A stretch of DNA of 56,558 nt from Bacteroidota bacterium (lineage in GTDB: Bacteria; Bacteroidota; Bacteroidia; Chitinophagales; Chitinophagaceae). Positions 33,095-47,808 of this stretch are shown here, in pieces. The stretch spans positions 1 through 56,558 of the forward strand of contig JAKQJH010000058.1 in NCBI GenBank assembly GCA_029561255.1, given 5' to 3'. Numbering within the stretch: the stretch's first letter is position 1; every line of letters starts with the position of its first letter. The translations under genes and the position numbers were made by a program. The notes beneath the pieces are model-generated. The model had not been told where the DNA came from. It saw nothing but the letters and a program-made list of their open reading frames with translations, and did no database searches.

Positions 33095-33166
33095 GTGGTT
33101 GCTTTTCATGTACAAATCTTCTTTATTTTAGAAGAACGGACAATCCCCTGAATCCATGTTTTTTCA

Positions 33167-33182
33167 TCCCCTGAACAGGGGA
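33167..33182. promoter_or_regulatory. TCCC-N8-GGGA palindrome between copy A operon and kinase 1
   Basis: TCCCCTGAACAGGGGA is a near-perfect palindrome midway between two divergent starts (73 and 63 bp away). A half-site, TCCCCTGAA, recurs at 33144-33152, 23 bp earlier, about two helical turns. Identical outer bases occur in three other promoter regions of this block. It is the best candidate operator for one or both linked response regulators (inference). Confidence 0.62.
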
Positions 33183-33244
33183 TTTTAAAGTAAAACTTGG
33201 AATTATGAAGCAGGTATGTGAATTTTAAGTTACTAATAATATTT

Positions 33245-35200
33245 ATGCATATACGAACCGGAATCCTGATGCTGATTTTTCCTGCTTTGTTGGCAGCGAA
33301 TGGGGTATATGCCCAATCCGGGGCGGCGGACAGTATCCGCAATCTCCTGCAGGGCGGGACGGAAGATAGTATAAAAGTATTCCGCTATTATCAGTATGGT
33401 GAGCTTTATGAACAGTCAAAGCCTGACTCTGCCGATTTTTATTTCAGGAAAGGGCTGGAACTGGCAAAGAAATTAAACTATCAAAAGGGGATTTTTTCAT
33501 ACACCAGTTATGCCATTGTATTATTGAATAACAAAGGGAAATACCTCGAAGGACTGGCGCTTACGCAGGAATCTGTTGAACAGGCTACTCAGTTCGGGAA
33601 TATCCGGGATCAGGCCACTGCTTATATCAATGTGGCTAATGAATGGCAATACCTGGGGGATCTTGAAACAGCTGCTGCATTTTATCTGAAGGCCGCTGAA
33701 CAGGCGTCCGGCTTGCCGGAAAAGAAATTTGAAAGGGTGGCGCTGAACAACCTGGCTTCCGTTTTTATAGAGCTCAAAGACTGGGATAAAGTGATTGCCT
33801 ACGCTAGCAAAGCGCTGTTCATTGCCCGGCAGATGAAAGATGACTATTCGATTGCTTCTTGCCTGATTAACCTGGCAGTAGGGAAAACCAATAAAGGTCA
33901 AATTGAAGAAGCAATTGCCTTGTATAACCAGGTATTTACAATCGGACAGCAAACGGAGGATTATATTCTCCGGCTGGATGGTTTAAACGGTTTGGGGGAA
34001 GTGTTCCTGGCCCGTAAGGACCTCAAAACAAGTGTCCGCTATTTCCATCAGACCCTGAAGCTGGCGGGTGAAAATGAAGATCCGGTGTATGCCATGTATG
34101 CGAATGGGGGATTGGCGTCTTCCTTTTCCGGAATCGGACAACGGGATTCAGCTGTCTATTATGTGTTGCAGGCCATACGGATTGCCCGGGAGAACAATGC
34201 CTCGCTTGAACTAAAAAATTACTGCCTGGAAGCATCTGGTTTGTACGAGCAGATGGGCAACTTTAAAGCAGCATTGGATTACCAGAAGCAGTTTCAGCTG
34301 CTTAGTGATTCATTGCTGGGAGAAAAAAGTAATTCAGCCATCTTGCTGGCGGAAGCAAAGTTTCAGGGAAAGCAAAAAGAGCAACAGTTGTTGTTACAGC
34401 AATCCTCCATCAGGCAGAAGAGTATGCTGAACTATGTATTTATAGGAAGTACGATTGCTTTACTCCTGATCTCCCTGCTAACTTACCGAAATTACCGGCA
34501 GAAAAGAAAGCTGTCTGATCAGCGGATTGCTGACCTGGAAAGAGAAAAACAATTATCAGCCACACAGTCATTGCTCCGCGGACAGGAAGAGGAGCGGAAC
34601 CGGATGGCCCGGGATCTGCATGATGGTCTTGGGGGATTACTAAGTGGGGTTAAACTACAATTAGGCGCTATGAAAGGAAACCTTGTTTTATCGGAAGAGA
34701 TGGGACGGACATTTAACAACGCCCTGAACAAACTGGATGAGTCGATTAACGAAATGCGCAGGGTGGCACATAACATGATGCCGGAGGCCTTACTAAAACT
34801 GGGACTGCAACAGGCATTGCAGGACTATTGTGATGGTTTATCGGAGTCGTCAGGCGGTTTCAGGATCACCGGGGAGTTTCATGGCCTTGATAAGCGGCTG
34901 GATGCATCGACCGAAGTGGTGGTATACCGGATCGTCCAGGAGTTATTAAATAACGCCGTCAAACATTCCGGGGCTGATCAGATACTTGCACAGGTGATGC
35001 GGCAGGAGCAGGCACTCACGATTACGGTGGAAGATAATGGGAAAGGATATGATATAGCAGACCCTGATTCGAAGTCAGGGGCCGGTCTACGAAACATCCG
35101 TTCCAGGGTGGATTACCTGAAAGGACAGCTGGATATTCAATCACTACCCGGTAAAGGAACTTCAATACATATAGACTGTTTAATTGATAACCATGAATAA
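33245..35200 (+). CDS. TPR-containing sensor histidine kinase 1
   Basis: A 651-residue kinase with signal peptide MHIRTGILMLIFPALLAANG and start at ATG 33245. About six TPR-like helix pairs (residues 30-370) are predicted outside the membrane. One membrane helix near residue 400 (YVFIGSTIALLLISLLTY) follows. The cytosolic part has a HisKA_3 dimerisation helix with the phospho-His in MARDLHDGLGGLLSG and an ATPase domain with VEDNGKGYD and GAGLRNIRSRV. The 3' end overlaps the regulator gene by 8 bp. The signal sensed is unknown. It is clearly a paralog of the kinase at 45862-47808. Confidence 0.9.
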   Translation: MHIRTGILMLIFPALLAANGVYAQSGAADSIRNLLQGGTEDSIKVFRYYQYGELYEQSKPDSADFYFRKGLELAKKLNYQKGIFSYTSYAIVLLNNKGKYLEGLALTQESVEQATQFGNIRDQATAYINVANEWQYLGDLETAAAFYLKAAEQASGLPEKKFERVALNNLASVFIELKDWDKVIAYASKALFIARQMKDDYSIASCLINLAVGKTNKGQIEEAIALYNQVFTIGQQTEDYILRLDGLNGLGEVFLARKDLKTSVRYFHQTLKLAGENEDPVYAMYANGGLASSFSGIGQRDSAVYYVLQAIRIARENNASLELKNYCLEASGLYEQMGNFKAALDYQKQFQLLSDSLLGEKSNSAILLAEAKFQGKQKEQQLLLQQSSIRQKSMLNYVFIGSTIALLLISLLTYRNYRQKRKLSDQRIADLEREKQLSATQSLLRGQEEERNRMARDLHDGLGGLLSGVKLQLGAMKGNLVLSEEMGRTFNNALNKLDESINEMRRVAHNMMPEALLKLGLQQALQDYCDGLSESSGGFRITGEFHGLDKRLDASTEVVVYRIVQELLNNAVKHSGADQILAQVMRQEQALTITVEDNGKGYDIADPDSKSGAGLRNIRSRVDYLKGQLDIQSLPGKGTSIHIDCLIDNHE

Positions 35201-35816
35201 AATTAATATCGTAATCGTGGATGATCATCCGATGGTGCTGGAAGGGATGAAAGCGATGCTGAATCAGATTTCATTTGTCACACTAAACGGTATTGCCAGT
35301 AATGCCTTTCAGGCCATTGAATTGCTGAAAGGGTGCGAGCCTGATATCCTGATCACGGATATTAATATGCCGGAAGTGAGCGGTATCGAACTTACCTTAA
35401 AAGTACGGAAGGAATTTCCACAGGTAAAAGTGATTGCCATGAGTACTTTCAAGGAACGTAGCTATATATCGCAGATGATTCAGAACGGGGCATCCGGCTA
35501 CCTGGTGAAGAGCGCTTCCAAAGAAGAAATTGAAGAAGCGATCCTGTCTGTTTATGAAGGTAAATTGTATATGAGCCTCGATGTAAATCTTTCTGCATCG
35601 GATAAACAGGAAATGACCAATGTTCCGGTATTAAGCAGCCGGGAAAAAGAAGTGCTGCAACTGATCGGGGAGGGGCTGACCAATCCCCAGATTGCAGCCA
35701 AGTTATTTATCAGTCTTCATACGGTGGATAGTCACCGGAAAAACCTGCTCACTAAATTCGGAGTAAATAATACTGCCGGTTTAATTAAACAGGCGGCAAA
35801 GCATAACATGCTTTAA
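35193..35816 (+). CDS. LuxR/NarL-type response regulator 1
   Basis: A 207-residue two-domain regulator. The receiver has VIVDDHPMVLEG at the start and the phospho-acceptor Asp in DILITDINMPEVSG. The C-terminal HTH has LSSREKEVLQLIGEGLTNPQIA and HTVDSHRKNLLTKFG. It overlaps kinase 1 by 8 bp and so forms a two-component pair. The start at 35193 is chosen over an in-frame ATT at 35184. It likely binds the nearby palindromes (inference). Confidence 0.93.
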   Translation: MNKINIVIVDDHPMVLEGMKAMLNQISFVTLNGIASNAFQAIELLKGCEPDILITDINMPEVSGIELTLKVRKEFPQVKVIAMSTFKERSYISQMIQNGASGYLVKSASKEEIEEAILSVYEGKLYMSLDVNLSASDKQEMTNVPVLSSREKEVLQLIGEGLTNPQIAAKLFISLHTVDSHRKNLLTKFGVNNTAGLIKQAAKHNML

Positions 35817-35827
35817 CCGGCTGGGGT

Positions 35828-36634
35828 TTACCGGGGATTATAATACGTCGCTTTAATTTCCGGAATCAGTTCATTTAGTTTTTTAATCCGGGTATCATCG
35901 CTTGGGTGAGTAGACAGGAATTGCGGGAGCTTACTGTTATTGAGCGCAGCCATTCTTTGCCAAAAGGGTATCGCTTCAGCCGGATCATAACCGGCCATAC
36001 TCATAAAGATCAGTCCAAGTTTATCGGCCTCAGATTCCTGCATCCGGCTGTTGGGTAAGGAAAGGGCCAGGTTCGAACCCACCATATACAGCCCGAGGAA
36101 TAAAAACTGGGTTTCCTGCTTTTTATCTTTCAATGCTTCCTCTAGCACAAGACCTCCCAGGTTAATCAGCAGGCTTTCACTCATCCGCTCATTACCGTGC
36201 CGGGCAATCGCATGGGCAATTTCATGTCCCATGACCACCGCTAGTCCGCTTTCATTTTTTGTCACCGGTAAAAGACCCGTATAAACCACCACTTTTCCAC
36301 CCGGCATACACCAGGCATTGATGGTGTTTTCATGAATGGTATTGAATTCCCAATTGAAATTTTTTAATTCCCGGCTCAGGTTGTTTTGTTGCATATATTT
36401 CTCAACGGCCATCCGGATATTCGTACCCACTTTTATTACTTCCTGGGCCCGCTGATCGGTTGACGGAAGAGTAGGACTGATCTTCAATACGGAGTCATAG
36501 GCTGAAAATGACATGGTGGTGATCAGGCTGTTGGGGACCAGGTTCAGTTGTTTGCGGCCGGTAACAGGGACCCTTTTACAGGCACCAGCCAGGAGCACTA
36601 CACAAAGGAGAACGATTAAGCGGGAGTTGTACAT
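35828..36634 (-). CDS. M48-family zinc metalloprotease, probable lipoprotein
   Basis: A 268-residue protease with the zinc motif HEIAHAIARH near residue 139 and a third ligand Glu in MQESEADKLG near residue 200. The N-terminus MYNSRLIVLLCVVLLAGACKR has a lipobox (LAGAC), so it is probably an envelope lipoprotein of the BepA/LoiP kind that trims misfolded outer-membrane proteins. It is convergent with regulator 1. A TCCC-N8-GGGA palindrome lies 50 bp upstream of its start. Confidence 0.92.
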   Translation of the reverse strand: MYNSRLIVLLCVVLLAGACKRVPVTGRKQLNLVPNSLITTMSFSAYDSVLKISPTLPSTDQRAQEVIKVGTNIRMAVEKYMQQNNLSRELKNFNWEFNTIHENTINAWCMPGGKVVVYTGLLPVTKNESGLAVVMGHEIAHAIARHGNERMSESLLINLGGLVLEEALKDKKQETQFLFLGLYMVGSNLALSLPNSRMQESEADKLGLIFMSMAGYDPAEAIPFWQRMAALNNSKLPQFLSTHPSDDTRIKKLNELIPEIKATYYNPR

Positions 36635-36683
36635 ACAGCATGTTTTAGATCTGTAAAAGTAACAGGCGCTGGAAAGAAATCTC

Positions 36684-36699
36684 TCCCTTAAAAAGGGGA
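36684..36699. promoter_or_regulatory. TCCC-N8-GGGA palindrome upstream of the M48 protease
   Basis: TCCCTTAAAAAGGGGA is identical over all 16 bp to the site at 45798-45813, 9 kb away. It lies between the end of a SET-domain gene and the start of the protease gene, in the promoter region of the latter. Confidence 0.65.
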
Positions 36700-36722
36700 A
36701 AAAGAAGGATTACCGGAAAATT

Positions 36723-37124
36723 TTATTTTTCCCTGAATTGTATATTTCTCGATTCAAACCATTCGGTATAGGTTACTCCCTGCTCACCGGAATAGTTGAT
36801 GTTTATTTCTTTTCCGGCAGGAATATCCTCAAGCGCATAGTAGATCATGGTGCGGCTTTCCCTGTCCAGCTGGTAAGCGGCATTGGAGTGTATGGCATGG
36901 TTGTATAATGAACCGAATCCCAGTACAAGTGTGAGGGTCCGGTCTTCTTTAACAAAATTAAAGAAGTAATCCGCCAGGCGGGAAGAAACGGCTGTGTCAT
37001 AATCACTGGCTGGCAGTACGATCAACTGGCAGATTTCTATGACTTCATCCCGGAGGATGGGTTCCTTGCAGAATACACCACGGCCTTTGCCTTTGATATT
37101 TTTTATGTAGAGTTGATGGCTCAT
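36723..37124 (-). CDS. small SET-domain protein 1
   Basis: A 133-residue protein that is almost only a SET domain, the fold of SAM-dependent protein-lysine methyltransferases. KGRGVFCKEPILRDEVIE near residue 12, LYNHAIHSNAAY near residue 74 (the NHSxxPN block) and DIPAGKEININYSG near residue 104 are the defining blocks. No signal peptide is present. Its ATG overlaps the stop of the second SET gene by 4 bp. Bacterial substrates of such proteins are mostly unknown. Confidence 0.86.
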   Translation of the reverse strand: MSHQLYIKNIKGKGRGVFCKEPILRDEVIEICQLIVLPASDYDTAVSSRLADYFFNFVKEDRTLTLVLGFGSLYNHAIHSNAAYQLDRESRTMIYYALEDIPAGKEININYSGEQGVTYTEWFESRNIQFREK

Positions 37125-37534
37125 ACATCTGCCGGAGGAAAGTAAACAGGTGATGGGTCATTGGGACGACCATTATAGTTGAGGGTGATCTCCTCGCCGG
37201 GCGTAACAGGCTTACAGGCGATGATTTCCAGGTATTCTTTTTTTACATTAATCCTGTAACGGGCATTCGCTGCGGATGAATGGTTATAAAGTGAGCTAAG
37301 TCCAAGTCCGAGTGCTGCCGGTGTTTTCGGATTGTCTACTACAAAATAGTAATGATACAACCGGGTATATTCAAGCAATTCTTTGTCACTTTCTTTCAAC
37401 AGAATGAGGGGGGCTTTTTCTATGACATCATTTATAGTGAATGATTTTTCTGCAAAAACGCCCAACCCATGCAAGGGGCTTGGTTTTGCCAATATGCCTG
37501 CAGGTTGTGGGATGGTGGAATTCCAAAACACCAT
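37121..37534 (-). CDS. small SET-domain protein 2
   Basis: A 137-residue SET-domain protein related to its neighbour. It shows HGLGVFAEKSFTINDVIE near residue 25, LYNHSSAANARY near residue 82, and PVTPGEEITLNYNG near residue 112. It starts 5 bp after the stop of the heptad-repeat gene and overlaps SET 1 by 4 bp, so the three genes are one operon. The pair probably arose by tandem duplication; it may act as a heterodimer or on two sites (speculation). Confidence 0.87.
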   Translation of the reverse strand: MVFWNSTIPQPAGILAKPSPLHGLGVFAEKSFTINDVIEKAPLILLKESDKELLEYTRLYHYYFVVDNPKTPAALGLGLSSLYNHSSAANARYRINVKKEYLEIIACKPVTPGEEITLNYNGRPNDPSPVYFPPADV

Positions 37535-37539
37535 ACTTA

Positions 37540-37923
37540 TTATTTCAGGTTAGTTTTTTTCAAAGCGGGCACATCTTTCATAGCCTTGGCTCCGGTGATT
37601 TTGATTGCTTTTGAGGTCGTGTCATTCGTCTCTTTAAATTCTTTTAACTGTAACTCATTTTTTAATTTAAGCGTATTCCCTGTTTGTTTGATTGTTGTAT
37701 TGGTTTTTTTAAACCGGCTGTTTGTTTCTTTAATAGTACCGGTGGTGTTTTTAATGTGGGTATCGGTGGCATTTTTGTCGCCTTTGACAATAGCCGTATC
37801 ACTGACAGGTGTTTGCTCTTTTTTTACCGGGGGAGCGGTTTCTTTTCTAACCGTGGGTATGGTCTGGGCTTTAAGACCGGCGGCAATCAGCAAAGAGCCG
37901 ATGATAGCGAATGTTTTTTTCAT
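37540..37923 (-). CDS. exported Lys/Thr-rich heptad-repeat protein
   Basis: A 127-residue protein with signal peptide MKKTFAIIGSLLIAAGLKAQ. A Pro/Lys/Thr segment is followed by consecutive 7-residue units of the type hydrophobic-Lys-x-Thr: IKNTTGT, IKETNSR, FKKTNTT, IKQTGNT and LKLKNEL. Lys follows the hydrophobic residue in each. The protein is unusually rich in Lys and Thr and lacks Cys and Trp. It is the first gene of an operon with two SET-domain genes, and a TCCC-N8-GGGA palindrome lies 81 bp upstream. I know of no matching family. Confidence 0.75.
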   Translation of the reverse strand: MKKTFAIIGSLLIAAGLKAQTIPTVRKETAPPVKKEQTPVSDTAIVKGDKNATDTHIKNTTGTIKETNSRFKKTNTTIKQTGNTLKLKNELQLKEFKETNDTTSKAIKITGAKAMKDVPALKKTNLK

Positions 37924-38003
37924 TTGATTAATTTTTAGTTTGAATTACGGGAGTATGATTTTGTGATCTGAATTAAAATTAATTGTAATCCGGAATGATG
38001 TTC

Positions 38004-38019
38004 TCCCCCGAAAGTGGGA
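38004..38019. promoter_or_regulatory. TCCC-N8-GGGA palindrome upstream of the SET operon
   Basis: TCCCCCGAAAGTGGGA matches the outer bases of the other three sites, with a less symmetrical centre. It lies 81 bp upstream of the heptad-repeat gene, in the gap after the large secreted protein at 38090. Confidence 0.55.
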
Positions 38020-38089
38020 TTTTTTGCTTTTTTAGGTTACACCCGTCTTCCACCAGCCTCATTCCAGGAGAAGTCCGTATCTGAAAAGC

Positions 38090-39988
38090 TTAGAGCCGGA
38101 TACGGACATTGCTGATGAATAGTCCCGTATTTTCTGCATCATTGGTGATATTACGGAAGTTCAGGGTGTTGAAACGGGTACCGGATGGCAGTTTGCATCC
38201 GGGGCATTCTTTACCATAACTCATTTTAAAGTCTGCCAGAGTTGCCACGGCCTGGTCATTCATAAATAGGCTGATATTTCCATTTTTAACATCCAGCTTA
38301 ATATGTGTTTTGGTTTTTTTATTCGTCAGTAACCGGGTAGCTGTTTTAAAGTATAATCCCTCGGCGTAATTTTCTTTGTAGATAGCCGGTTGGCTATGCA
38401 ATTCCATTCGGATTTCACCCCTGAAATTATTGTTAGTCAAATCAGCTTCATTGCCTGCTTGAATGATAAGATCCAGCGAATAGCCGGGAGATCCGCTTTT
38501 TTCCCTTCCATCTTCCAATAAAGGATACGAACTGAGGTGCAGCTTTACCGCCCCTCCGGTTCGGGTTGAAAAAGTATCGGTTACCAGGTCAAATTCAAGC
38601 GTAAATTGTTCAGGTATCGGTTTCTTCAAAAAGGCAGGTGTGACGTCCGAGTTATATCCCAGTTTCAGCCATTTGCCCGGATATTTTTTGTGCGTGGAAA
38701 TGGTGGAGTGTTTACCATAACTGGAGAAATACCATCCGGCAGGTTTGCTGCCTTCTGCATTGCCCGAGAAGTCATCTTTAAAATAGAGGCCTTCCGGTAA
38801 GTTTTGCAGCGAAGCGGGCATTCCCTGATTTCCTTTATTCCGGTAGTTGTCGAGCCTGGCCGCTAATTCTTCTTTATTGGATGCGAAATAGGAAATCCCT
38901 TTGTTTTTTTCCGGACTAAAGAAATGATTGTAAACGTATTCGTAATTGAAATTTTCAGTTACACTTTGATACATTTCCCACAGTTGATTACCGTTTTCTT
39001 TTGTTTCAAACGGCACCCATATGGCAATCCATTGCGGCTCACTTGTTTTACATTTTTCAAGAACTTCCGGACTGATTTTATATATCGGGAAATACGATTT
39101 TAACCGGTTGTCCTGTGCGGTGATGGTAAACGGATCCGGATCCAGTTGAAAACTGTACATGGTTGGCTGCATTTCCCGGGTTACTGCGGGTTCATTCAGC
39201 CTGTTTTTATGCCGGACACGGAGTTGTTGAATGTTGACCCGGTGTTTTTCAACGGTGTTTTTCCGATAGGCAAAAGCATCCTGTTGTGCTTTCAGGTTAC
39301 CCGGCCATTTGGCTTCCACGTCTTTACGTTCATTTTCAAGCTGCCGTTCCAACGACGCTTCGGCCATATCCAGGTATTCTCCCAGTTTAACCGGGATAAA
39401 CGGTAATTTGTTACCCGGGGCCAGGTAGACGGTTACCACTTCATTGACATGGGTGATAAACTTATTGGCATTTGCATGAATACCCTGATCCAATTGGTTT
39501 CTATTCCTGGCGGCTTGTTCATTGGGACTATAGCCATCCGGTTGCCAGGTAAAAACATATTGCCCCGGTTTATTGATAAATCCAATGGGGAAACTGCCTG
39601 TTATCGAATTGATGTAAACACCGAATTTTGTCAGTTCCTCCGGAATTGGCCTGAACTTTCCTTTGTTATCCAGCCATTCTTTGTTAAAACTCACATTCCA
39701 GACGGCAAATTGTACCCCATAGTTATTGGTGTTTATAAACCGGGTATACGTGCCAAGTCCGGCTACCGGAGTATAACTTTTTTTCATCCATTCCACCAGT
39801 TTGTCCAAGTGGTCGATTTTTCTTTTCCGGTCCGGATTGTTTTCCGCAGTTAGTTTTTTGTCAAATTTCAGGTTATCCCACCAGCCAATCACGCTGTCTT
39901 CAATCCGCTGTTCGGGGGTGAATTGAGCCAGTAAGGCGGAGGAGAATAAAATGGTGATGATACAGGTCAGAATTGTCCGGTATTTCAT
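38090..39988 (-). CDS. large secreted protein with C-terminal lectin-like domain, copy C
   Basis: A 632-residue protein of the same layout as its neighbour at 40009-41826: signal peptide (cleavage near SALLAQ), an N-terminal domain with WMKKSYTPVAGLGTYTRF near residue 68, a charged helix near residues 205-270, the shared block YVYNHFFSPEKNKG near residue 350, and a C-terminal beta domain of about 210 residues starting YFKDDFSGNAEG. The beta domain resembles concanavalin A-like lectins/glucanases. No catalytic motif is seen. It is the last gene of a five-gene run headed by the astacin gene. Confidence 0.75.
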   Translation of the reverse strand: MKYRTILTCIITILFSSALLAQFTPEQRIEDSVIGWWDNLKFDKKLTAENNPDRKRKIDHLDKLVEWMKKSYTPVAGLGTYTRFINTNNYGVQFAVWNVSFNKEWLDNKGKFRPIPEELTKFGVYINSITGSFPIGFINKPGQYVFTWQPDGYSPNEQAARNRNQLDQGIHANANKFITHVNEVVTVYLAPGNKLPFIPVKLGEYLDMAEASLERQLENERKDVEAKWPGNLKAQQDAFAYRKNTVEKHRVNIQQLRVRHKNRLNEPAVTREMQPTMYSFQLDPDPFTITAQDNRLKSYFPIYKISPEVLEKCKTSEPQWIAIWVPFETKENGNQLWEMYQSVTENFNYEYVYNHFFSPEKNKGISYFASNKEELAARLDNYRNKGNQGMPASLQNLPEGLYFKDDFSGNAEGSKPAGWYFSSYGKHSTISTHKKYPGKWLKLGYNSDVTPAFLKKPIPEQFTLEFDLVTDTFSTRTGGAVKLHLSSYPLLEDGREKSGSPGYSLDLIIQAGNEADLTNNNFRGEIRMELHSQPAIYKENYAEGLYFKTATRLLTNKKTKTHIKLDVKNGNISLFMNDQAVATLADFKMSYGKECPGCKLPSGTRFNTLNFRNITNDAENTGLFISNVRIRL

Positions 39989-40008
39989 TTATTTTTTTTA
40001 AATGGTGA

Positions 40009-41826
40009 TTATTCGTTCATTATTTTAATATTATCAATAAAATATTTTTCATAATCACTGTCACTTCGTGAATGGGAAAATCCAATTCCCCGGATAGTTA
40101 TACTATTTTCAGTAAAAGCATTGGTATTACTGAATACCTGCTTTTGATTCACCCATAATTCCAGCAATTGCCCTTTTTTTCGTACCTGTAGCTGATATTT
40201 GTTAATGGGCATATTATTGGAAAAGCCGGGAATCGGAATTTCTGATGCCTTGGCCGTGCTGCCTTGCTGCAAAATGCTGGATCCGAAATCGTCAGGTCCG
40301 GCGTACAGGAATCCGGGATTTCCATCATACCCGGGCCGCATACTCACGAGGAAAGAGGCTTTGTCGGTTCCAAAACGGATCACCAGCCGTTTGGCTCCCC
40401 AGGTATATCCCTTTGGAACGGCTATGTCGCAGGTAAATGTAAAATTTGCCGGTAGATTGATTTTCTCTTTTTGTTCCAGTTGCTGTCCTTTTATGACAGC
40501 CCATTGATCGCCATTTTCAGGATGCAACTCAACCTTTGCCGGTTCACCATAATAATTGTTTCCGGATTTCCAGCTGACAGGCGTTTTCCCGGGTAGTGTA
40601 TTGGAAAAATCATCAAACAGGATCGTGCCCGGTACTGCTTTCTGTTTAATGGCATTGGCAGATTCAGTTTTCGCTGCCGGGTCTTCTTTCCTTACAGGAG
40701 GACGGAGTGGCAGGTAAGGGTTACCTTTTATTTTTTCCGGGTCAAAAAAGTAATTATAGATGTATTCAATATCCAGGTTATTCAGCATGGAAGAATGCAG
40801 GTTTTTAAATGATTCATCATACATTTCACCGCCTCCCCAACCGATGGTGATCCATTGTGGCCTGTCCGTACTGGCATTGGCGGTACGGGCAGGGTCAAAT
40901 TTGTATACCGGTATTTTATCATTGGTACTTCCGTTCCCTTCAAACAGGTCAGGGGTGTATTCCAGATGCACGGAGGGCTGTTCGGTGTAGATCGTGGCTT
41001 TCTCATTCAGCCGGTTTCTGTATTTTTCTTTCTGGCCGGCCAGTGCATCCATCCTTCTTTTATACAGAGCTGATTCATTCTCTAAAAAACTTTGTTTTCT
41101 TTTTTCATTGTAATCCTCATTAATTTTTTTCAGGTTTTCGGTATGAGTCCGGTTGATGGATTTTTCAAGTTGTTCAAGGAACTCTCCTTTAGTAATCTGC
41201 ACCCAGGGTCGTTCATTGTTTTGGCTCAATATCACATTGTATTGGGAGAGAAAGCGGATACTTTTTGGCTGGTAATAATGAATATACCGGCTGAATGCCG
41301 GATGGGTATTAAATCCCATGAATTGCTGGTTGGAACGGGCATATTCATCATTTGATTGAACAGCGGGTATATAGAAATAGTACTGTTCGGTGGAACTGAT
41401 TACATCCACATGATCTCCCACTAACCCGTTGGCGGTAACACGCAGGAAAAGTCCAAGGTTGTTTTCCGGGGTCCAGCCACCACCGGCTTTTTTCTTCAGG
41501 AATACATAGGTGGGCAGGAATGCACCATAGTAATTATGGAGGGACCGGGTGTACTGATTATAAGGACTTAGTTTTTCATTGGCAAACCGGCGTCCTTCAC
41601 CCAATCCGCCTTTGGGCATATAGCTGGCCTGTATCCAGCTGATAAACAGGTTACAGGTGGAAAGTTGTTTAGCAGAATACTGCCGGTGATCAACCCGGGC
41701 CGGTTTTACAGGATCAGCGGCATTAATTTTTCTGATCCAGCCGAGGTATTGATCACTGTATTCCGTTTGGGTGTTTCCGAAAACACCGGATAGAATAAAG
41801 GCAGATAACAGGATAATCTTTTTCAT
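40009..41826 (-). CDS. large secreted protein with C-terminal lectin-like domain, copy D
   Basis: A 605-residue paralog of the protein at 38090. Matching blocks include WIQASYMPKGGLGEGRRF near residue 64, RPQWITIGWGGGEM near residue 320 and YIYNYFFDPEKIKG near residue 350. The signal peptide ends near GNTQ, a Lys/Glu-rich coiled helix spans about residues 215-285, and the C-terminal lectin-like domain starts LFDDFSNTLPGKTP. It lies 20 bp upstream of copy C and 22 bp after the 328-residue gene, so they are co-transcribed. The role is unknown. Confidence 0.75.
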   Translation of the reverse strand: MKKIILLSAFILSGVFGNTQTEYSDQYLGWIRKINAADPVKPARVDHRQYSAKQLSTCNLFISWIQASYMPKGGLGEGRRFANEKLSPYNQYTRSLHNYYGAFLPTYVFLKKKAGGGWTPENNLGLFLRVTANGLVGDHVDVISSTEQYYFYIPAVQSNDEYARSNQQFMGFNTHPAFSRYIHYYQPKSIRFLSQYNVILSQNNERPWVQITKGEFLEQLEKSINRTHTENLKKINEDYNEKRKQSFLENESALYKRRMDALAGQKEKYRNRLNEKATIYTEQPSVHLEYTPDLFEGNGSTNDKIPVYKFDPARTANASTDRPQWITIGWGGGEMYDESFKNLHSSMLNNLDIEYIYNYFFDPEKIKGNPYLPLRPPVRKEDPAAKTESANAIKQKAVPGTILFDDFSNTLPGKTPVSWKSGNNYYGEPAKVELHPENGDQWAVIKGQQLEQKEKINLPANFTFTCDIAVPKGYTWGAKRLVIRFGTDKASFLVSMRPGYDGNPGFLYAGPDDFGSSILQQGSTAKASEIPIPGFSNNMPINKYQLQVRKKGQLLELWVNQKQVFSNTNAFTENSITIRGIGFSHSRSDSDYEKYFIDNIKIMNE

Positions 41827-41848
41827 ATACTGTTTTTAGAATGAGTGT

Positions 41849-42835
41849 TCAGAATCCGGTAGCTTTTTTCAGTTTATTCAGCAATGATTTTTTTTCCTTT
41901 ATGGGTTTGGCAATTGTATCGGTCTTTGAAGTGCTGGCAGGCGAAGCAACTGGTCCGGATGCAGGAGGGGGGGCTGTTTCCGCCGGCTTAAAATCAGGCA
42001 TTTTGATTTTCTCTTTGCTGATGATGTCCCCTTTCAGCCACTCTTTTACAAAAATGGTTATGATATCGTTTACTTCTTTTCCAGCCCTGAAGCAGGCTTT
42101 CCATTTCAACGATTGCTTTTCATAGGCGGGGTTCACAAACTTCACTTTTTTGTATTTGTCCGGAGCGGTTAGTGCTGCATCAAAATCCACGGAAGCAACA
42201 AGAGCCAGGTAGTCCTGAAGTTTTTGCTTTACCAATGGGGCAGGGTCTGCCGGATAATGTTTCTCCCAGCGGGTAAGGTTCGGGTGGGGATCTTCCCAGT
42301 TGGCCAGGTTTTTTTTCTGGTCCTGAATTCCTTTTTCATAGGCAGCAATAATATCCGGCGATATTCCTTTTTGTTTTTTTAAATCCGCCAGTTGTTTATC
42401 CATTTCTTTTACAGATTGACGCTGGCTTTGGATCATTTCAGCATCCGGTCGCCAGGGTTCGGTAGTGGGTTTGGCGGCATCCCTTCTTTTGTTGTAATCG
42501 TTCATAAAATCTGAACTGTTTACATACATTTTTACATAGGAACAAAGTTCCCGGGCCGCCCCGTTCTTGTCTCCTTTTATGACGGCTGGCAACAGACGGG
42601 CATAGGGAATGCGGAATGATTTCATCTGATCATACGCATCTGCATTACTCCCTCCATCTTCCTCATTTTCTTCCATCGGGCCCTCTTCAAAACTTCCGGC
42701 CAGGTTGCTGAGGATATAATAGCGGGCTGTTTTATGTTCAAGTCCAAGCCGGGTTATGATCGTATCTGCAGCGATAAAAGCGCTGAAAAGCAGCAGACAG
42801 CCCATTAAGGCAACCCCAGTTTTATTTCTATTCAT
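41849..42835 (-). CDS. hypothetical exported protein with charged helices
   Basis: A 328-residue protein with an N-terminal hydrophobic segment (VALMGCLLLFSAFIAADT). It contains an acidic stretch near residue 55, the block RIPYARLLPAVIKGDKNGAARELC near residue 75 (key residues R, P, Y and C), a long helix near residues 140-190, and a Pro/Ala/Ser-rich linker before a Lys-rich end. I recognise no family of known function. It lies between copies D and the 429-residue gene with gaps of about 21 bp. Confidence 0.68.
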   Translation of the reverse strand: MNRNKTGVALMGCLLLFSAFIAADTIITRLGLEHKTARYYILSNLAGSFEEGPMEENEEDGGSNADAYDQMKSFRIPYARLLPAVIKGDKNGAARELCSYVKMYVNSSDFMNDYNKRRDAAKPTTEPWRPDAEMIQSQRQSVKEMDKQLADLKKQKGISPDIIAAYEKGIQDQKKNLANWEDPHPNLTRWEKHYPADPAPLVKQKLQDYLALVASVDFDAALTAPDKYKKVKFVNPAYEKQSLKWKACFRAGKEVNDIITIFVKEWLKGDIISKEKIKMPDFKPAETAPPPASGPVASPASTSKTDTIAKPIKEKKSLLNKLKKATGF

Positions 42836-42856
42836 GGTAAAATGGTTTATTTTTTC

Positions 42857-44146
42857 TTAGTTGCTTATTTTTTTCATAATCCATTTTCCGGTCTTATAAT
42901 ATCCGGAACCGGTACAGGTCCAGCTGCCGCTGAGTTCACCTGTTTGTGTGTTGTACCCCGTGGAAGTATATATCCATTTCCAGTTATTACTGTCAGTATA
43001 GCTTCCTGTGAAATTTCCGTTTTCAAAATTATATCCCCCTGCCACTACCGCTGTTCCACTGCCGTTGTTATTCAGCAGCCAGAATCCATAGTTGCTGCAT
43101 TTGAAGTTCAACGGACCGTCTGTCGCACTGGTCATTGTTCCGGTTGTTCCTTTCCAGACACCCGACATCAGTTCATTATTAACCGGGACAGATGCTATTT
43201 TAATACCCGTGGTTTTAACCGGAATGGATTGTTTAACCGGGCGGGGTGGATTAACGAATACATTGTTGTTTCCGGCGGGAGCAGGTGCGGGTGGTGGTGC
43301 CGGTTTGCTGAGATCCTTTTCAAACGTGAAATGAAACCGCAACATATAGATCCCATGATCCCTGGTATTCCCCATTGATTCTTCATTTATGACAAAATCG
43401 TTATAACTCATGCTATAGGTTTTGCCATCAATCGGGTTGTTTTTATTCTGCGTAATAATCATTTGCGATTTAAGCGAAAAAACGATTGGGCTAAACTCAC
43501 CGGCTTTACTTATCCCTATCGGACGGCTGCCGTTGACCCCATTAACCGATTTAAGAAGGTCGGCAAAAGTGGGCATTCGGATCACACTTAAGTTATTGAA
43601 CTGATAACATTTATAACTCCCATAACAGTATTGCAGTATTCCTGGAATCGGCTGATTGATACTATTGAATGAATTGATTATACGGCTGTCAATAGAATTC
43701 TGTAGCTGACTATTGCTGTTATTATCCCATTCCCAGATCGTCGGGATTACCGTTATATAATCCCCGGCTTCCAACCGGACACGGCGGATATTGGGAAATT
43801 CATTACCGGGGAAAAACTGGCTGCCGGTGGAGAGCCCCCCTTTATTATCTGGGTTGGCATGGCCAGCCAGCACCCGGTCCGGAAAACGGTACGTATCCCC
43901 GTAAGTTTTGGACACCACTTTATTTGTATAGCGGGTAACCCCGTTTTTATCCAGGACCGAATAATAGATCACAAAATAGACTTCGTCGCCAAAGCCATCA
44001 AAATTCAGGAAATCATCATTGGTGGCTTTCTGGCACATAAAGCTATTCAGGTCAATAGTGATCCAGCCGGCTGGTGAGGATTCATTCTGGGCCATGGCGG
44101 ATTCAATCAGCAGAAATAAGAACAACAACGGGAAGAACTTTTTCAT
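42857..44146 (-). CDS. hypothetical secreted beta-rich protein
   Basis: A 429-residue exported protein (signal MKKFFPLLFLFLLIESAMAQ). The first 270 residues contain a beta-rich domain with several Cys and a block YCYGSYKCYQFNNL near residue 190. A Pro/Ala linker lies near residue 285. The last 105 residues begin MSGVWKGTTGTM and show repeated Gly/Trp strands (GGYNFENGNFTGSYT, GELSGSWTCTGSG), as in small avidin-like or lipocalin-like barrels. Function is unknown. It follows the astacin gene after 149 bp holding two hairpins. Confidence 0.7.
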   Translation of the reverse strand: MKKFFPLLFLFLLIESAMAQNESSPAGWITIDLNSFMCQKATNDDFLNFDGFGDEVYFVIYYSVLDKNGVTRYTNKVVSKTYGDTYRFPDRVLAGHANPDNKGGLSTGSQFFPGNEFPNIRRVRLEAGDYITVIPTIWEWDNNSNSQLQNSIDSRIINSFNSINQPIPGILQYCYGSYKCYQFNNLSVIRMPTFADLLKSVNGVNGSRPIGISKAGEFSPIVFSLKSQMIITQNKNNPIDGKTYSMSYNDFVINEESMGNTRDHGIYMLRFHFTFEKDLSKPAPPPAPAPAGNNNVFVNPPRPVKQSIPVKTTGIKIASVPVNNELMSGVWKGTTGTMTSATDGPLNFKCSNYGFWLLNNNGSGTAVVAGGYNFENGNFTGSYTDSNNWKWIYTSTGYNTQTGELSGSWTCTGSGYYKTGKWIMKKISN

Positions 44147-44233
44147 AATTGCAATTTGTTGTGTAAATATGGAATTTACCGGTGAGCCAGGTTATCCCTG
44201 AAAACCATGAATTTTAGCGAAAACGGTACATGC

Positions 44234-44277
44234 GAAAGTCCTGCAAACAGCGTGTTTCAGCGATTGGCAGGACTTTC
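44234..44277. repeat. 11-bp inverted repeat after the astacin gene
   Basis: GAAAGTCCTGC and GCAGGACTTTC pair perfectly with a 22-bp spacer, just downstream of the astacin stop codon. A second hairpin, TGCCGG/CCGGCA around GTTTTA, encloses that stop codon at 44296-44298. No T-tract follows, so they may be processing or pausing structures rather than true terminators. Confidence 0.6.
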
Positions 44278-44295
44278 AGTAGATATTGCCGGGTT

Positions 44296-45609
44296 TTACC
44301 GGCAGGAGTCATTTTTCCATACCAGTCTTACCCTTGAGCCACCAGGCAGTGCGCTCAGCACATTCCAGCGATAGCCAAGCAGGGTATGTACCCCAAAGGC
44401 TTTTGCTTTCCAGAATGCAATTCCATTCGCTTTGTCCAGGTCATTTACATTGATAAGTGCATTGGTCCAGGTCAGGTTTTCAGAAGCAATCAATGAATGG
44501 TTTTGCACCCATAGTTCCTGTTTCCGGTTGTTTCTTAGTGGTATGCTTATCTGTTTCCACCAGGTAACGGCCACATTGTTCCTTTTGCCCAGTTCAAGGA
44601 TGAATTCAATTTTGTCACTGGCCACAACATCGTATTCGACGGTGAAATCCACCATGTCGCAATCATCACCGGTTTGCAACAGGCCGCTGCTGTTACCTGG
44701 CTTGAAGGGGAAAGGGTATACCTGGCGGGCAAAAGTGATGTCCATCGGAGAGAAGTCATAATTCACTCCAACTGTAAATCCATCGAGGGTCAGTCCTTTA
44801 TCGATCGAATAGTGCATGATCGATTTGGGATCATACCTGGAAGAATTGGTACTCCCCGCATTGTATTTTGCAAAGAGATTGATGTCCACTTCTATACCTG
44901 ACCAGTTATTAGGCGGGCCTGCGTAGTACTTGTATACCTCTGGTTTATTCCACTGTATATTATTGGCTGGTGACTGGTGTTCATGTATAAATCCGAGGGC
45001 ATGGCCGAATTCATGCAAAATCGTTTTTTTGAATTCTGTTTCTTTCGTATTGCTGTCGAACCATCCAAAGTGCATGGTATAAAAACCGAGCGGGTTGAAC
45101 AAAACATCACGTCCTATCCAGGACCAGCTCCTGTTGTCGTCAGAGAACTCCACTTTGATCTGTGCATCATTAATGTTGTTGGTGAAGCTGAATTTAATAT
45201 TGGCGATCGTTTCCCATTTTTTTGCATAGGTTATCACTTTTTGCCGGATCAGCTCGGAGCCGTTATTCGTACTTAAGTAAACGCCGATGACTTGTCCCGG
45301 GTTCCACATCTTCATGGTTTCACCTGCGAGGGGTTGTCTGGTTACGCCAACGGAAGGTACCGTTCCATCCGCATTGATTCTGGGTGGGGGCTGTACCTGT
45401 GAGTTGTCTCTTGGAGGGAAATTACCCGTGGAAGGATATCGGTCCACACACATTCTGACCGGGTCCTGAACCAATATGGCCTGATTCAGTTTTACCGGAC
45501 GTTCAAGTTGTACCGGTTTGCCAACCTTTTGAGGTTGTACCCGTTGGGCAAGAACGGACATCGCCAGGCAAAACAGGATGAGTCCGGTAAAAGTTATTTT
45601 TTTGAACAT
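44296..45609 (-). CDS. astacin-type secreted zinc metalloprotease
   Basis: A 437-residue metzincin protease. The full zinc motif HEFGHALGFIHEHQ lies near residue 200 and the Met-turn SIMHYS, with its Tyr ligand, near residue 255. The signal peptide MFKKITFTGLILFCLAMS is cleaved near VLAQ, and residues 25-90 form a Pro/Val-rich stretch that may act as a propeptide. The C-terminal 130 residues form a beta domain with two or more Cys. It heads a five-gene run and is divergent from kinase 2, about 250 bp apart. Confidence 0.9.
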   Translation of the reverse strand: MFKKITFTGLILFCLAMSVLAQRVQPQKVGKPVQLERPVKLNQAILVQDPVRMCVDRYPSTGNFPPRDNSQVQPPPRINADGTVPSVGVTRQPLAGETMKMWNPGQVIGVYLSTNNGSELIRQKVITYAKKWETIANIKFSFTNNINDAQIKVEFSDDNRSWSWIGRDVLFNPLGFYTMHFGWFDSNTKETEFKKTILHEFGHALGFIHEHQSPANNIQWNKPEVYKYYAGPPNNWSGIEVDINLFAKYNAGSTNSSRYDPKSIMHYSIDKGLTLDGFTVGVNYDFSPMDITFARQVYPFPFKPGNSSGLLQTGDDCDMVDFTVEYDVVASDKIEFILELGKRNNVAVTWWKQISIPLRNNRKQELWVQNHSLIASENLTWTNALINVNDLDKANGIAFWKAKAFGVHTLLGYRWNVLSALPGGSRVRLVWKNDSCR

Positions 45610-45760
45610 AGTTTAGTGTTTATTTGGTTAATGGTAATACAAGGACCTCACCCCGGGTTTAAAGGGCAGCTTGATTTTTTTCATATCATACATTATAAAG
45701 ATTCAAGCATCTTTTCTGACCCGAAGAGGTAAAACTGTTTTTATTTTATGATAGTTCCTA

Positions 45761-45776
45761 TCCTGTAAAAACAGGA
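45761..45776. promoter_or_regulatory. TCCTGT/ACAGGA palindrome upstream of kinase 2
   Basis: TCCTGTAAAAACAGGA is a perfect 6-bp inverted repeat with the same overall length as the TCCC-N8-GGGA sites. It lies 37 bp before such a site in the astacin-kinase 2 gap and may be a second, weaker copy of the same operator. Confidence 0.45.
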
Positions 45777-45797
45777 ATTTCCACAGGTATCGAAAAA

Positions 45798-45813
45798 TCC
45801 CTTAAAAAGGGGA
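45798..45813. promoter_or_regulatory. TCCC-N8-GGGA palindrome between astacin gene and kinase 2
   Basis: TCCCTTAAAAAGGGGA is identical to the site before the M48 protease. It lies 49 bp upstream of the kinase 2 start. A T-rich box CTTTATTTG follows at 45833-45841, possibly the -7 region. Confidence 0.65.
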
Positions 45814-45861
45814 GGCTGCATACGGGGTTGTATCCTTTATTTGCAGTATAATGCTGGAAAA

Positions 45862-47808
45862 ATGAATTGGAGGAAGATTATATTGACAAGTGTTACCGCA
45901 CTGTTCTGTGTTCCTCTGCTGCTGTGGGGGCAGGGTACCCCAAAGACGGATAGTCTGCTTAAAGCGTTGGCAGTTGCCAAAAAAGATACCAGTAAAATTT
46001 TATTGTTGTATGCTATCGCGGAGCAATATGAAAATTCTGAACCCGATAAAGCGAGAAAATATATTAAACAGGGCGGTGAATTAAGCCGGGAGATCAATTA
46101 TCAACCCGGCATTATGAAGTCATACCGGATGCTTTCTTATGTATACTCTTTCCAGTCAAAATTCGATTCAGTTATTTATTACAATAGACTGGTGTTGGAT
46201 ATCGCCCGCAGCCGGAATGATTCATTTAATATCGGGGTTTCATTTTTTAATATCGGGATCGGCTTCCGGTTTATGTCCGAACTGGATAGTGCGGTGGTTT
46301 ATACCCTGCAGGGGGCAAAATTACTGGAGGGGAAGGGGTACAGTAATATTGAAAGCAGCATAAATGACGGGCTGCAGACCCTCTATATGACCCTGGGTCA
46401 ATACGAAAAAGCGATCAGTTACGGGAACAAAGCGGTTGAGCTGGCCCGTAAACTGGAAGACCAGTCTGCACTGGCTAACAGTCTTTCTAACCTGGGGCTT
46501 TCTTATTCGGAAACCAATCGGGTATCAGAGGCAAAGAAAATATATCTGGAGGCCCTTCAGATTGCAGAATCAACTAATAATAAATCCATCCAGGCGGTGG
46601 TGCTGAATAATCTTTCGGATATCGCTATTAAGGAAAATCAGTTTGACCGGTTAAAGACATATGCCGAAAGAAGTATAGCCCTGGCAGGCGAAATGGAAGA
46701 TGAGGGTACACTGATCAGTGGCAAACTCAGCCTGGCGGCTTATCTGCTGAGCCGGCAGGAATATGTGGCGGCACAGGAACAGGCTTTAGCAGCTCTTGCT
46801 TTGTCTGAAAAGCAGAACCTGCTGGAGGGGAAGACCACTTCGCTGGGTATGCTTTCTGCCATTGCTTTTTCCCGGCAGGATTACAAAAAAGGGTTTGAAT
46901 ATTATTACCAGAAAATGGATTTTGAGGGAAAGGTATTCAATCAGTCGCTCCAGCAAAAAGAGGCGGCACTCAGGATCCGGTATGAAACGGAGAAAAAAGA
47001 TACACAGATACTGCTTCAACGGACCGAACTTCAACGGAAAACAGTTTTTAATTATCTCCTGATCGGCGGCGCGGCGGCCCTGTTGCTGATCACACTCCTT
47101 TCTTATCGTACGTACAGGCAGAAGCAGAAATTACAGCAACACCGGATCGAAGAACTGGAAACACAGCAACAATTATTGGCAGCCGAAGCAGTAATGAAAG
47201 GGGAAGAACAGGAGCGAACCCGCCTGGCAAAAGACCTCCATGACGGATTAGGAGGGATGTTGTCGGGTATTAAATACTCATTTCAGACTATGAAAGGAAA
47301 CCTGATTATGACGCCGGAGAACCAACAGGCGTTTGAACGAAGCATGGATATGCTGGACAGTTCAATTAAGGAAATGCGCCGTGTGGCACATAATATGATG
47401 CCTGAAGTTTTGGTGAAATTCGGACTGGATACGGCCATGAAGGATTTCTGTGATGACATTAACAGGTCCGGAGCCCTGCGGGTGGTTTATCAGTCATTGG
47501 GGATGGACCTGTTACAGGTTGAACAGACAGCCGCTATTGCTGTTTACCGGATAGTACAGGAATTGCTGAATAATACCATGAAACATGCAGCGGCTAAAAC
47601 GGCCATTGTACAACTGAGCCGGACCGATGCCGGAATTAATATTACAGTAGAAGATGACGGAAAAGGATTTGATCCGGTAATTTTGAGCGGGGGGAAAGGA
47701 ATAGGCTGGAGTAATATTCAAAGTCGTGTGGAATACCTCAAAGGCAAGATGGATGTCAGGTCTACTCCGGGCAACGGGACTTCGGTAAACATTGAATTTA
47801 ATTTATGA
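45862..47808 (+). CDS. TPR-containing sensor histidine kinase 2
   Basis: A 648-residue paralog of kinase 1: signal peptide MNWRKIILTSVTALFCVPLL, TPR-like helices over residues 30-370 (SNLGLSYSETNRVSEAKKIY near residue 215), one membrane helix near residue 400, the HisKA_3 motif LAKDLHDGLGGMLSG with phospho-His near residue 460, and an ATPase domain with VEDDGKGFD and GIGWSNIQSRVEYL. The ATG at 45862 gives a proper signal peptide; an upstream TTG at 45841 is in the promoter region. Its TGA overlaps the ATG of regulator 2. Confidence 0.9.
   Translation: MNWRKIILTSVTALFCVPLLLWGQGTPKTDSLLKALAVAKKDTSKILLLYAIAEQYENSEPDKARKYIKQGGELSREINYQPGIMKSYRMLSYVYSFQSKFDSVIYYNRLVLDIARSRNDSFNIGVSFFNIGIGFRFMSELDSAVVYTLQGAKLLEGKGYSNIESSINDGLQTLYMTLGQYEKAISYGNKAVELARKLEDQSALANSLSNLGLSYSETNRVSEAKKIYLEALQIAESTNNKSIQAVVLNNLSDIAIKENQFDRLKTYAERSIALAGEMEDEGTLISGKLSLAAYLLSRQEYVAAQEQALAALALSEKQNLLEGKTTSLGMLSAIAFSRQDYKKGFEYYYQKMDFEGKVFNQSLQQKEAALRIRYETEKKDTQILLQRTELQRKTVFNYLLIGGAAALLLITLLSYRTYRQKQKLQQHRIEELETQQQLLAAEAVMKGEEQERTRLAKDLHDGLGGMLSGIKYSFQTMKGNLIMTPENQQAFERSMDMLDSSIKEMRRVAHNMMPEVLVKFGLDTAMKDFCDDINRSGALRVVYQSLGMDLLQVEQTAAIAVYRIVQELLNNTMKHAAAKTAIVQLSRTDAGINITVEDDGKGFDPVILSGGKGIGWSNIQSRVEYLKGKMDVRSTPGNGTSVNIEFNL

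Follow-up and report, generated by a model that had tools for sequence, protein, structure and literature searches.

Sensor kinases of the tetratricopeptide repeat (TPR) type with LuxR-type response regulators recur in Bacteroidia genomes, and our literature search, with subscription papers mostly outside its reach, found no target or site description for these systems in open-access papers. Two such kinase/regulator pairs are encoded in a 56,558-nucleotide stretch of DNA from a member of the Chitinophagaceae (Bacteroidota bacterium, assembly GCA_029561255.1, contig JAKQJH010000058.1, positions 1 to 56,558; hereafter the window), where a preliminary description had noticed the palindrome TCCC-N8-GGGA in four promoter regions of an accessory block. 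What binds these palindromes, and which genes do they control? We report that they are probably (at a probability of roughly 0.87, judged from sequence) operators from which the two NarL-type regulators activate their own operons as well as operons for secreted proteins. The evidence that carries this reading is the conservation of the sites, their fixed spacing to a -7 box, the dependence of the site on the regulator subtype, and a dyad before every paralogue of one secreted protein found in two genomes.

The palindromes and a refined motif

TCCC-N8-GGGA occurs exactly at 33167, 36684, 38004 and 45798, and comparison with the open reading frames (ORFs) placed all four copies between genes, in agreement with the preliminary description. 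They lie 48-80 bp from start codons (49-81 bp by the earlier count): 62 bp separate 33182 from the kinase-1 ATG at 33245 and 57 bp separate 33167 from the ATG at 33109, while the distances are 49 bp from 36684 to the start at 36634, 80 bp from 38004 to that at 37923, and 48 bp from 45813 to the kinase-2 ATG at 45862. The copies at 36684 and 45798 were correctly described as the same over 16 bp, and this 16-mer has no further exact copy in the window's genome assembly (3.63 Mb, 413 contigs, 76% complete); the half-site at 33144 and the TCCTGT/ACAGGA dyad at 45761 are present as well. A fifth match, absent from the preliminary description, lies at 43731-43746 inside the gene 42857-44146 on the minus strand. 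The window total of five matches compares with 1.35 expected, and at least five were reached in 1 of 100 shuffles.

The statement that this clustering is far above chance held for TCCC itself, with four intergenic copies in 13 kb in 0 of 300 shuffles, and failed for any 4-mer with N8, where 22 of 100 shuffles gave at least four intergenic copies in 13 kb; because the choice of motif must be counted, the raw cluster is not significant. Across the genome the bare eight-base pattern was found at 67 places (34 for the reversed control), and in a sample of 15 of these nine were inside ORFs and none exceeded 12.9 bits on the refined motif below. The preliminary description had named a spread at background frequency, inside genes as often as between them, as the outcome that would speak against it, and the bare pattern, which is near background and often in genes, comes close to that outcome. 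Given the count of 67 against 34 and the frequent location in ORFs, bare TCCC-N8-GGGA was discarded as a genome-wide regulon marker; it is a poor marker because it is too loose, and the signal sits in a 22-bp motif together with the -7 box.

This motif is a 22-column weight matrix computed from 31 sites of 18 loci in relatives, with the window left out. In the window it ranks 45798 (25.8 bits), 45761 (22.7), 33167 (22.4), 36684 (20.2) and 44195 (17.8) highest, the last being an additional site absent from the preliminary description; null maxima per window were 12.3-18.1 bits (10 resampled windows). Kinase-1-type promoters carry the style TCCC(C/T)TG-NN-CAGGGGA plus a half-site, and kinase-2-type promoters mostly have two dyads approximately 37 bp apart. 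The kinase-1-type dyad shows the 7-2-7 form in full (a 16-bp inverted repeat with 7-bp halves and a 2-bp spacer); the kinase-2-type dyad has the same 16-bp length with imperfect inner positions. A genome-wide profile search was also performed using a model (R1) that necessarily matches its own 26 training sites from relatives, and its E-values (0.006-2) fail to part true from false matches. In the window's own genome R1 gave 14 matches, four of them in the window; those on contigs C205, C116, C267 and C161 are promoter-placed, those on C164, C216 and C81 are inside ORFs (C164 has a promoter-placed dyad 165 bp on), and those on C129, C365 and C68 show nothing above 14.5 bits on the weight matrix.

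Conservation before kinase operons and fixed promoter spacing

The corresponding divergent gap next to the kinase-1 homologue holds a 16-bp dyad in genomes G004, G027, G014 and G028, in G005 a dyad lies upstream of the homologue, and a like dyad is present in the gap corresponding to 33167 in G058; at the place corresponding to the 33144 half-site, AATCCCC(C/T)(G/T)AAC is found at three loci (L071, L072 and L088). In G004 the region of the kinase-2 homologue carries TCCTGTAAAAACAGGA and TCCCTAAAAAAGGGGA with the same 37-bp spacing as 45761/45798; the dyad at L050:7857 in this genome is identical to that at 45761, and dyad pairs 27-41 bp apart occur in many homologous kinase loci. A largely syntenic block in G027 (L091) keeps the gene order astacin, 42857, 41849, 40009, SET, M48, and carries a dyad pair before kinase 2 that matches 45761/45798, TCCCTTAAACAGGGGA before the M48 orthologue (81% identical; L091:16958), and TCCCCTGAAAGCGGGA in the gap corresponding to 38004 (L091:15100), there with an added 168-aa gene between; no homologue of 38090-39988 is labelled in this locus.

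The order-level search covered 298 genomes, and among the 50 matches listed were 28 new loci, 26 of which were parsed as distinct; a dyad of at least 15 bits precedes the kinase in 25 of these 26 same-order loci outside the training set. Moreover, a class-level search of 295 genomes led to five loci in other orders (three families), and all five have a dyad (best scores 18.1 to 25.3 bits) upstream of the kinase frame, or, in L235, near its start, which is unclear. The presence of the site varies with the regulator. Among 64 parsed loci, a count that includes the training-set loci, a site of at least 15 bits was found in 30/35 with an Asp-type recognition helix, 4/4 with a Glu-type, 7/7 with an Asn-type and 0/7 with an RTVET helix, and in 5/10 where the regulator was not parsed and 0/1 of another type. 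None of seven kinase loci with the regulator helix RTVETHRKNIFRKT has a site of 13 bits or more; an eighth has a 13.1-bit match only.

The searches also returned a kinase-2 homologue with one in-frame TAA (G161:C25:12214-14088), either a pseudogene or a sequencing error, and a 961-aa protein (L089:5527-8412, in G059) that is 42% like kinase 2, convergent to the kinase-2 operon and by appearance an additional kinase-like copy of greater length. In the small genomes of the genus (1.5-2.1 Mb; G002, G003, G006, G007 and others) no kinase match was obtained at 1e-60/1e-70.

For the promoter geometry, 101 distinct dyad/gene pairs from 54 loci were used, the window included, with starts chosen 34-75 bp from the dyad; the sequence from dyad edge to ATG was read in the direction of transcription, and the motif had been built without that region. 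Of the 39 kinase pairs, 33 have TTT(A/G) at 26 or 27 nt past the dyad (3.0 expected), and of the 62 other pairs 49 do (1.5 expected; a few of these 62 are kinases missed by label), where the expected counts were taken from other offsets. In the window, TTTR follows at 26/27 nt after 45798(+), 45761(-), 44195(-), 36684(-), 38004(-) and the half-site 33144(-); the in-gene copy at 43731 has it on neither side. These boxes conform to the Bacteroidota -7 box, TAnnTTTR. In the accessible parts of two sources, sigma-ABfr promoters of Bacteroidota are given TAnnTTTG at -7 and TTTG near -33 (PMC7366714, PMC9723704), the former extending from -12 to -5 (PMC9723704), and this places the dyad at approximately -51 to -35 with its centre at -42.5/-43.5. 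The predicted position is that of a class II activator site, near -41.5 and at a fixed distance from the core promoter. The likeness to sigma-ABfr promoters lies in the TAnnTTTR-like box after 82/101 dyads; the differences are that the -33 position is adjoined or occupied by the dyad and that TTTA is more frequent than TTTG in the non-kinase promoters.

The spacing bears on the dyad at 45761 and the half-site at 33144, which the preliminary description took as support for cooperative binding. For each, a separate -7 box stands 27 nt away towards the divergent gene, so that each looks like an operator of a divergent secreted-protein promoter, and cooperative tandem-dyad binding was given up in favour of one operator per divergent promoter. 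Separately, kinase-1-type promoters (33183-33245 in the window; L088 and L071) share an AAA(A)CTTGGAA-like sequence some 10 nt past the dyad, followed at a greater distance by TACTTTTA-like boxes, an arrangement that may represent a -33 element and a dyad moved upstream by one step.

Regulator helix, half-site and predicted regulon

Three loci of the genus with TC(A/G)TT dyads carry the regulator helix PTVNTHRKSLLEKF, and most TCCC loci carry TV(D/E)(T/S)HRK. The TC(A/G)TT arm was found in 7/7 Asn-type (TVNTHRKS) loci compared to 0/34 Asp/Glu-type loci with a site. Sites of other genes change in the same way: near Asn-type systems 17 of 17 matches of at least 16 bits are switched (7 stretches), and 0 of 42 such matches have the switched arm in 14 Asp/Glu-type stretches. 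Two genomes, G059 and G014, each hold both helix/site versions at separate loci. The helix of L106 has Asp, with Ser at the second position, and its dyad is TCCC, which implicates the Asp/Asn position in half-site choice; this position aligns with a DNA-contacting lysine of NarL. The Asn type forms one clade (support 100/99 in a tree with a rough bootstrap), which suggests one evolutionary switch. Two further half-site types were seen, TCACG...CATGA with the helix ATIDTHRRH (L120/L025 in G041) and TCACCCG...GTGA with the helix FTVDSHRKN (L021/L081 in G024); these are possibly other specificities.

To outline the regulon we ran the composite pattern TCCNNNTTTNNNRGGA-N26/27-TTTR over 42 genomes of the genus, which gave 67 matches in total as compared with 31 of the reversed control. 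Of the 67, 58 (control 18) come from the 18 genomes in which kinase 2 has a match at E 1e-70, and nine (control 13; Fisher p 0.003) from the 24 in which it has none. In the window's own genome there were 11 matches (control 2), eight of them before gene starts (on C33, C116, C161, C205 and C267, plus three in the window), and all eight downstream genes have signal-peptide-like starts as judged by eye. The enrichment before secreted-protein genes for which the preliminary description had proposed a test is in this way supported, here and in other genomes, with the refined motif and the composite in place of the bare pattern.

The secreted protein encoded at 31736-33109 has four paralogues in the window's own genome (G000) and five in G027 (protein-only search, E 0.001), and 9/9 have a dyad upstream with TTTR at 26/27 nt, those on C352 and C28 via a half-site; the site scores range from 12.7 to 26.2 bits. 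As predicted from these matches, the regulon extends beyond the block. The suggestion that the block is one regulon fared less well: the kinase-1 and kinase-2 types differ in dyad style and their loci are on separate contigs in G027 (254 and 153 kb), and one shared regulon is for these reasons not the default, although each regulator may also read sites of the other type. G004, where the two kinase loci fall on separate short contigs with ends that may be neighbours, is uninformative on one versus two regulons.

The block, its proposed control and the alternatives

The features of the block are summarized in Table 1. The regulators both score above the cut-offs of PF00072 and PF00196 (Pfam), their receiver residues D56, I57, N58 and P60 are invariant across five aligned regulators, and the nearest solved relatives of regulator 2 in the PDB are VraR (the best), DesR, DevR and NarL. 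Both kinases have, by eye, a signal peptide and a TPR region followed by a transmembrane stretch ahead of the kinase core, a layout that suggests periplasmic sensing; they are probable periplasmic sensors. Seven of the 11 proteins of 29922-45609 (kinase and regulator excluded) have no Pfam family above cut-off. The secreted protein 31736-33109 matched no Pfam or NCBIfam family at E 0.01, and a Foldseek search with its predicted fold (mean predicted local distance difference test score, pLDDT, 49.5) gave nothing at an E of 0.001 or lower. The predicted regulon includes two small SET-domain genes side by side (36723-37534), whose G027 versions are 57% and 70% identical. A NamZ-like exo-muramidase gene (48470-49723) adjoins kinase 2/regulator 2; it is at the same place in G004, G014, G021, G024, G062, G020 and G018 and one gene further in G059, and the refined-motif scan of the window gave no good dyad for it.

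Table 1. Sites, promoter elements and genes of the block (positions in the window)
Feature	Position	Strand	Remarks
Secreted protein	31736..33109	-	Signal peptide by eye
-7-like box AAGATTTG	33113..33120	-	31736-33109 operon; TTTG fits, TA does not
Half-site (degenerate dyad)	33144..33159	-	Before secreted operon 31736-33109(-); TTTG 27 nt downstream
Kinase-1-type dyad TCCCCTGAACAGGGGA	33167..33182	.	Between kinase 1 and divergent secreted-protein operon; 22.4 bits
Kinase 1	33245..35200	+	TPRs, HisKA_3, HATPase_c (Pfam); signal peptide and transmembrane stretch by eye; ORF opens 33218
Response regulator 1	35184..35816	+	Response_reg and GerE (Pfam), helix HTVDSHRKNLLTKF; start probably 35193
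M48 peptidase	35828..36634	-	Pfam; lipoprotein-like N-terminus by eye
-7-like box TACTTTTA of M48 promoter	36654..36661	-	
Kinase-2-type dyad, M48 promoter	36684..36699	-	20.2 bits; TTTA 26 nt downstream
Heptad/SET operon	36723..37923	-	Heptad protein 37540-37923; SET-domain genes 37121-37534 and 36723-37124 (Pfam)
-7-like box TAATTTTA of heptad/SET operon	37974..37981	-	
Weak dyad TCCCACTTTCGGGGGA (minus strand)	38004..38019	-	Before heptad/SET/SET operon; 12.9 bits; TTTA 26 nt downstream
Secreted protein, no assigned family	42857..44146	-	44195 predicted to act on this gene; signal peptide by eye
-7-like box CATATTTA of gene 42857-44146	44164..44171	-	
Further dyad TCATGGTTTTCAGGGA	44195..44210	-	Before secreted gene 42857-44146; 17.8 bits; 48 bp from ATG; TTTA 27 nt downstream
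Astacin-like metalloprotease	44296..45609	-	Pfam; signal peptide by eye
-7-like box CAGTTTTA	45730..45737	-	Approximately 120 nt upstream of astacin ATG
Distal kinase-2-type dyad TCCTGTTTTTACAGGA	45761..45776	-	22.7 bits; TTTA 27 nt downstream; probable operator of divergent astacin-like gene
Proximal kinase-2-type dyad	45798..45813	+	Predicted operator of kinase-2 operon; 25.8 bits; 37 bp from 45761
-7-like box TTTATTTG of kinase-2 promoter	45836..45843	+	
Kinase 2	45862..47808	+	TPRs, HisKA_3, HATPase_c (Pfam); signal peptide and transmembrane stretch by eye; ORF opens 45841
Response regulator 2	47805..48425	+	Response_reg and GerE (Pfam), helix TTVDTHRKNLLSKF

The accessible text of PMC4549865 gives TACCCCTAAAGGGGTA as one of the 16-bp 7-2-7 dyads to which NarL binds; its activation of napF and yeaR proceeds from -40/-49 and -38/-47. 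Since the regulators of the block have the Response_reg and GerE domains and NarL activates from 7-2-7 dyads, we read the dyads here as activator operators. The likeness to the Escherichia coli NarL operators, as far as that text describes them (napF, yeaR and the synthetic dyad at -89 of narG), comprises 16-bp inverted heptamers with a 2-bp spacer, a C-rich left and a G-rich right arm, and a dyad near -43 at activated promoters, in addition to the same regulator architecture. The systems differ in that the half-sites here are TCCC(C/T)NG-like or TC(A/G)TT, the -7 box is the phylum-specific TAnnTTTR, the targets are mostly secreted proteins, and the partner is a TPR sensor and not NarX/NarQ. 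The NarL half-site is TACYYMT, a sequence that the half-sites here do not follow. FimS/FimR of Porphyromonas gingivalis is likewise a Bacteroidota two-component system, which the accessible part of PMC5431200 describes as activating fimA and regulating mfa1. In both kinases it is the TPR part that matches NCBIfam FimS (1.2e-26 and 3.5e-20), with scores of 93.2 and 71.8 bits, far short of the curated cut-off of 600. MctR and MadR are among the best NCBIfam relatives of both regulators, with matches below the curated cut-offs, and the MctR-, MadR- and VraR-type likeness is one of proteins.

In the mechanism that we propose, a dimer of the phosphorylated regulator would bind the 16-bp dyad through two 7-bp half-sites with a 2-bp spacer, in the form TCCCCTG-AA-CAGGGGA (kinase-1 type) or TCC(C/T)NNAAAANN(A/G)GGA and relatives (kinase-2 type). 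At approximately -51 to -35, directly upstream of TAnnTTTR, the bound activator would be placed to contact RNA polymerase and to compensate for a weak -33 element. Each system would switch on the operon of its kinase and regulator and also, from a second operator within that divergent gap, the neighbouring secreted-protein operon; further operators would drive the M48 protease, the heptad/SET operon, the gene 42857-44146 and the scattered paralogues of the secreted family. Here we infer direct binding, its dependence on phosphorylation, activation as opposed to repression, and the assignment of each regulator to its sites. That the LuxR-type regulators are the natural binders, as the preliminary description proposed, is likely in view of the regulator-subtype dependence and the conservation before kinase operons.

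Several points weigh against this reading. The 31 training sites were chosen by eye, and by score alone 38004 (12.9 bits) and 44195 (17.8 bits) are within the null maxima; 38004 is supported otherwise, by its spacing to the -7 box and by the similar dyad in the matching G027 gap. Among the 25 order-level sites, those of L109 (15.3 bits) and L123 (15.2 bits) are weak. Five of the 35 Asp-type loci lack a site: the upstream DNA of L017 is on another contig, which has a dyad, L042 has a pair more than 300 bp upstream, and L027, L028 and L101 are without any site. TTTR at 26/27 nt is missing in 19/101 pairs, among them kinase 1's own promoter, and 3/11 composite matches in the window's own genome are inside genes. 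Three scores among the nine paralogue sites (12.7, 13.2 and 15.1 bits) are within the null maxima; the weak sites, which are on C33 and C267 and at C23:46784, rest on the composite pattern. Inspection by eye shows no signal peptide in the SET proteins. Three of the seven Asn-type loci belonged to the training set, and the change of helix and half-site, which by the tree is one event, makes the count of seven versus 34 overstate independence. Finally, one kinase with TC(A/G)TT dyads (L182:8543-10489, in G231; 3/3 sites in the stretch switched) has no regulator gene adjoining; its regulator may lie elsewhere.

That the dyads are the regulators' operators and serve as repressor sites, for autorepression or for silencing of the secreted genes, would agree with their bordering the -33 region, and NarL represses from a 7-2-7 site near the frdA start (PMC4549865, accessible text). 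We consider this unlikely, since a centre at approximately -43 and the rigid -7 spacing in 82/101 pairs are class II activator geometry. Repressor sites are usually less strictly spaced. Another dimeric transcription factor that co-regulates two-component systems and secreted genes might also bind a palindrome, as many factors do, and we only infer that the neighbouring regulators bind; L182, having sites without an adjoining regulator gene, would fit such a factor. Nevertheless, the half-sites vary together with the recognition helix of the adjoining regulator, G059 and G014 hold both versions, each at its own locus, and no excess over the control (9 versus 13) is seen in genus genomes that lack a kinase-2 match, which makes an unrelated factor very improbable.

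The remaining readings do without a regulator. The dyads can form 6-bp stems with A-rich loops (by eye) and T runs follow 38004 on the plus strand, as in RNA hairpins of terminators, attenuators or structured leaders. However, the dyads are upstream of the -7 box and thus outside the transcript to be controlled, those at 33167, 45761 and 45798 are between divergent genes, and variants such as TCATGG...AGGGGA pair badly yet recur; hairpins are correspondingly hard to credit. A chance cluster or an interspersed family of the repetitive extragenic palindromic (REP) kind could explain why the bare pattern is a poor genome-wide marker and why the cluster is not significant after motif choice. Against this are the conservation across families and orders, the fixed promoter spacing and the dyads at 9/9 paralogues, and only the 16 bp with flanking A/T recur in the upstream regions inspected, with no longer unit; the probability is close to nil. 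Terminators, attenuators and REP elements were dismissed on these grounds, namely sites in promoter gaps at fixed spacing upstream of -7 boxes and no longer repeated unit.

With activation by the NarL-type regulators as the preferred reading, a defined operator with fixed promoter spacing, found also in three families of other orders, would make regulons readable from genomes, and a family of uncharacterised secreted proteins would be tied to a probable periplasmic sensor. The two pairings, Asp with TCCC and Asn with TC(A/G)TT, offer a natural regulator/operator pair for studying insulation of two-component paralogues. We put at about even odds the wider proposal that the TPR-kinase/LuxR systems across the whole class Bacteroidia are one family of self-activating switches, each with its own 16-bp dyad at a constant distance upstream of the phylum-specific -7 box and its own secreted battery, and with paralogues in one cell insulated by the recognition helix, in which a change from Asp to Asn (with Asn to Ser five residues on) would have accompanied the rewriting of TCCC to TC(A/G)TT. 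If this is true, sequence would suffice to predict which regulon belongs to each of these orphan systems in Bacteroidia.

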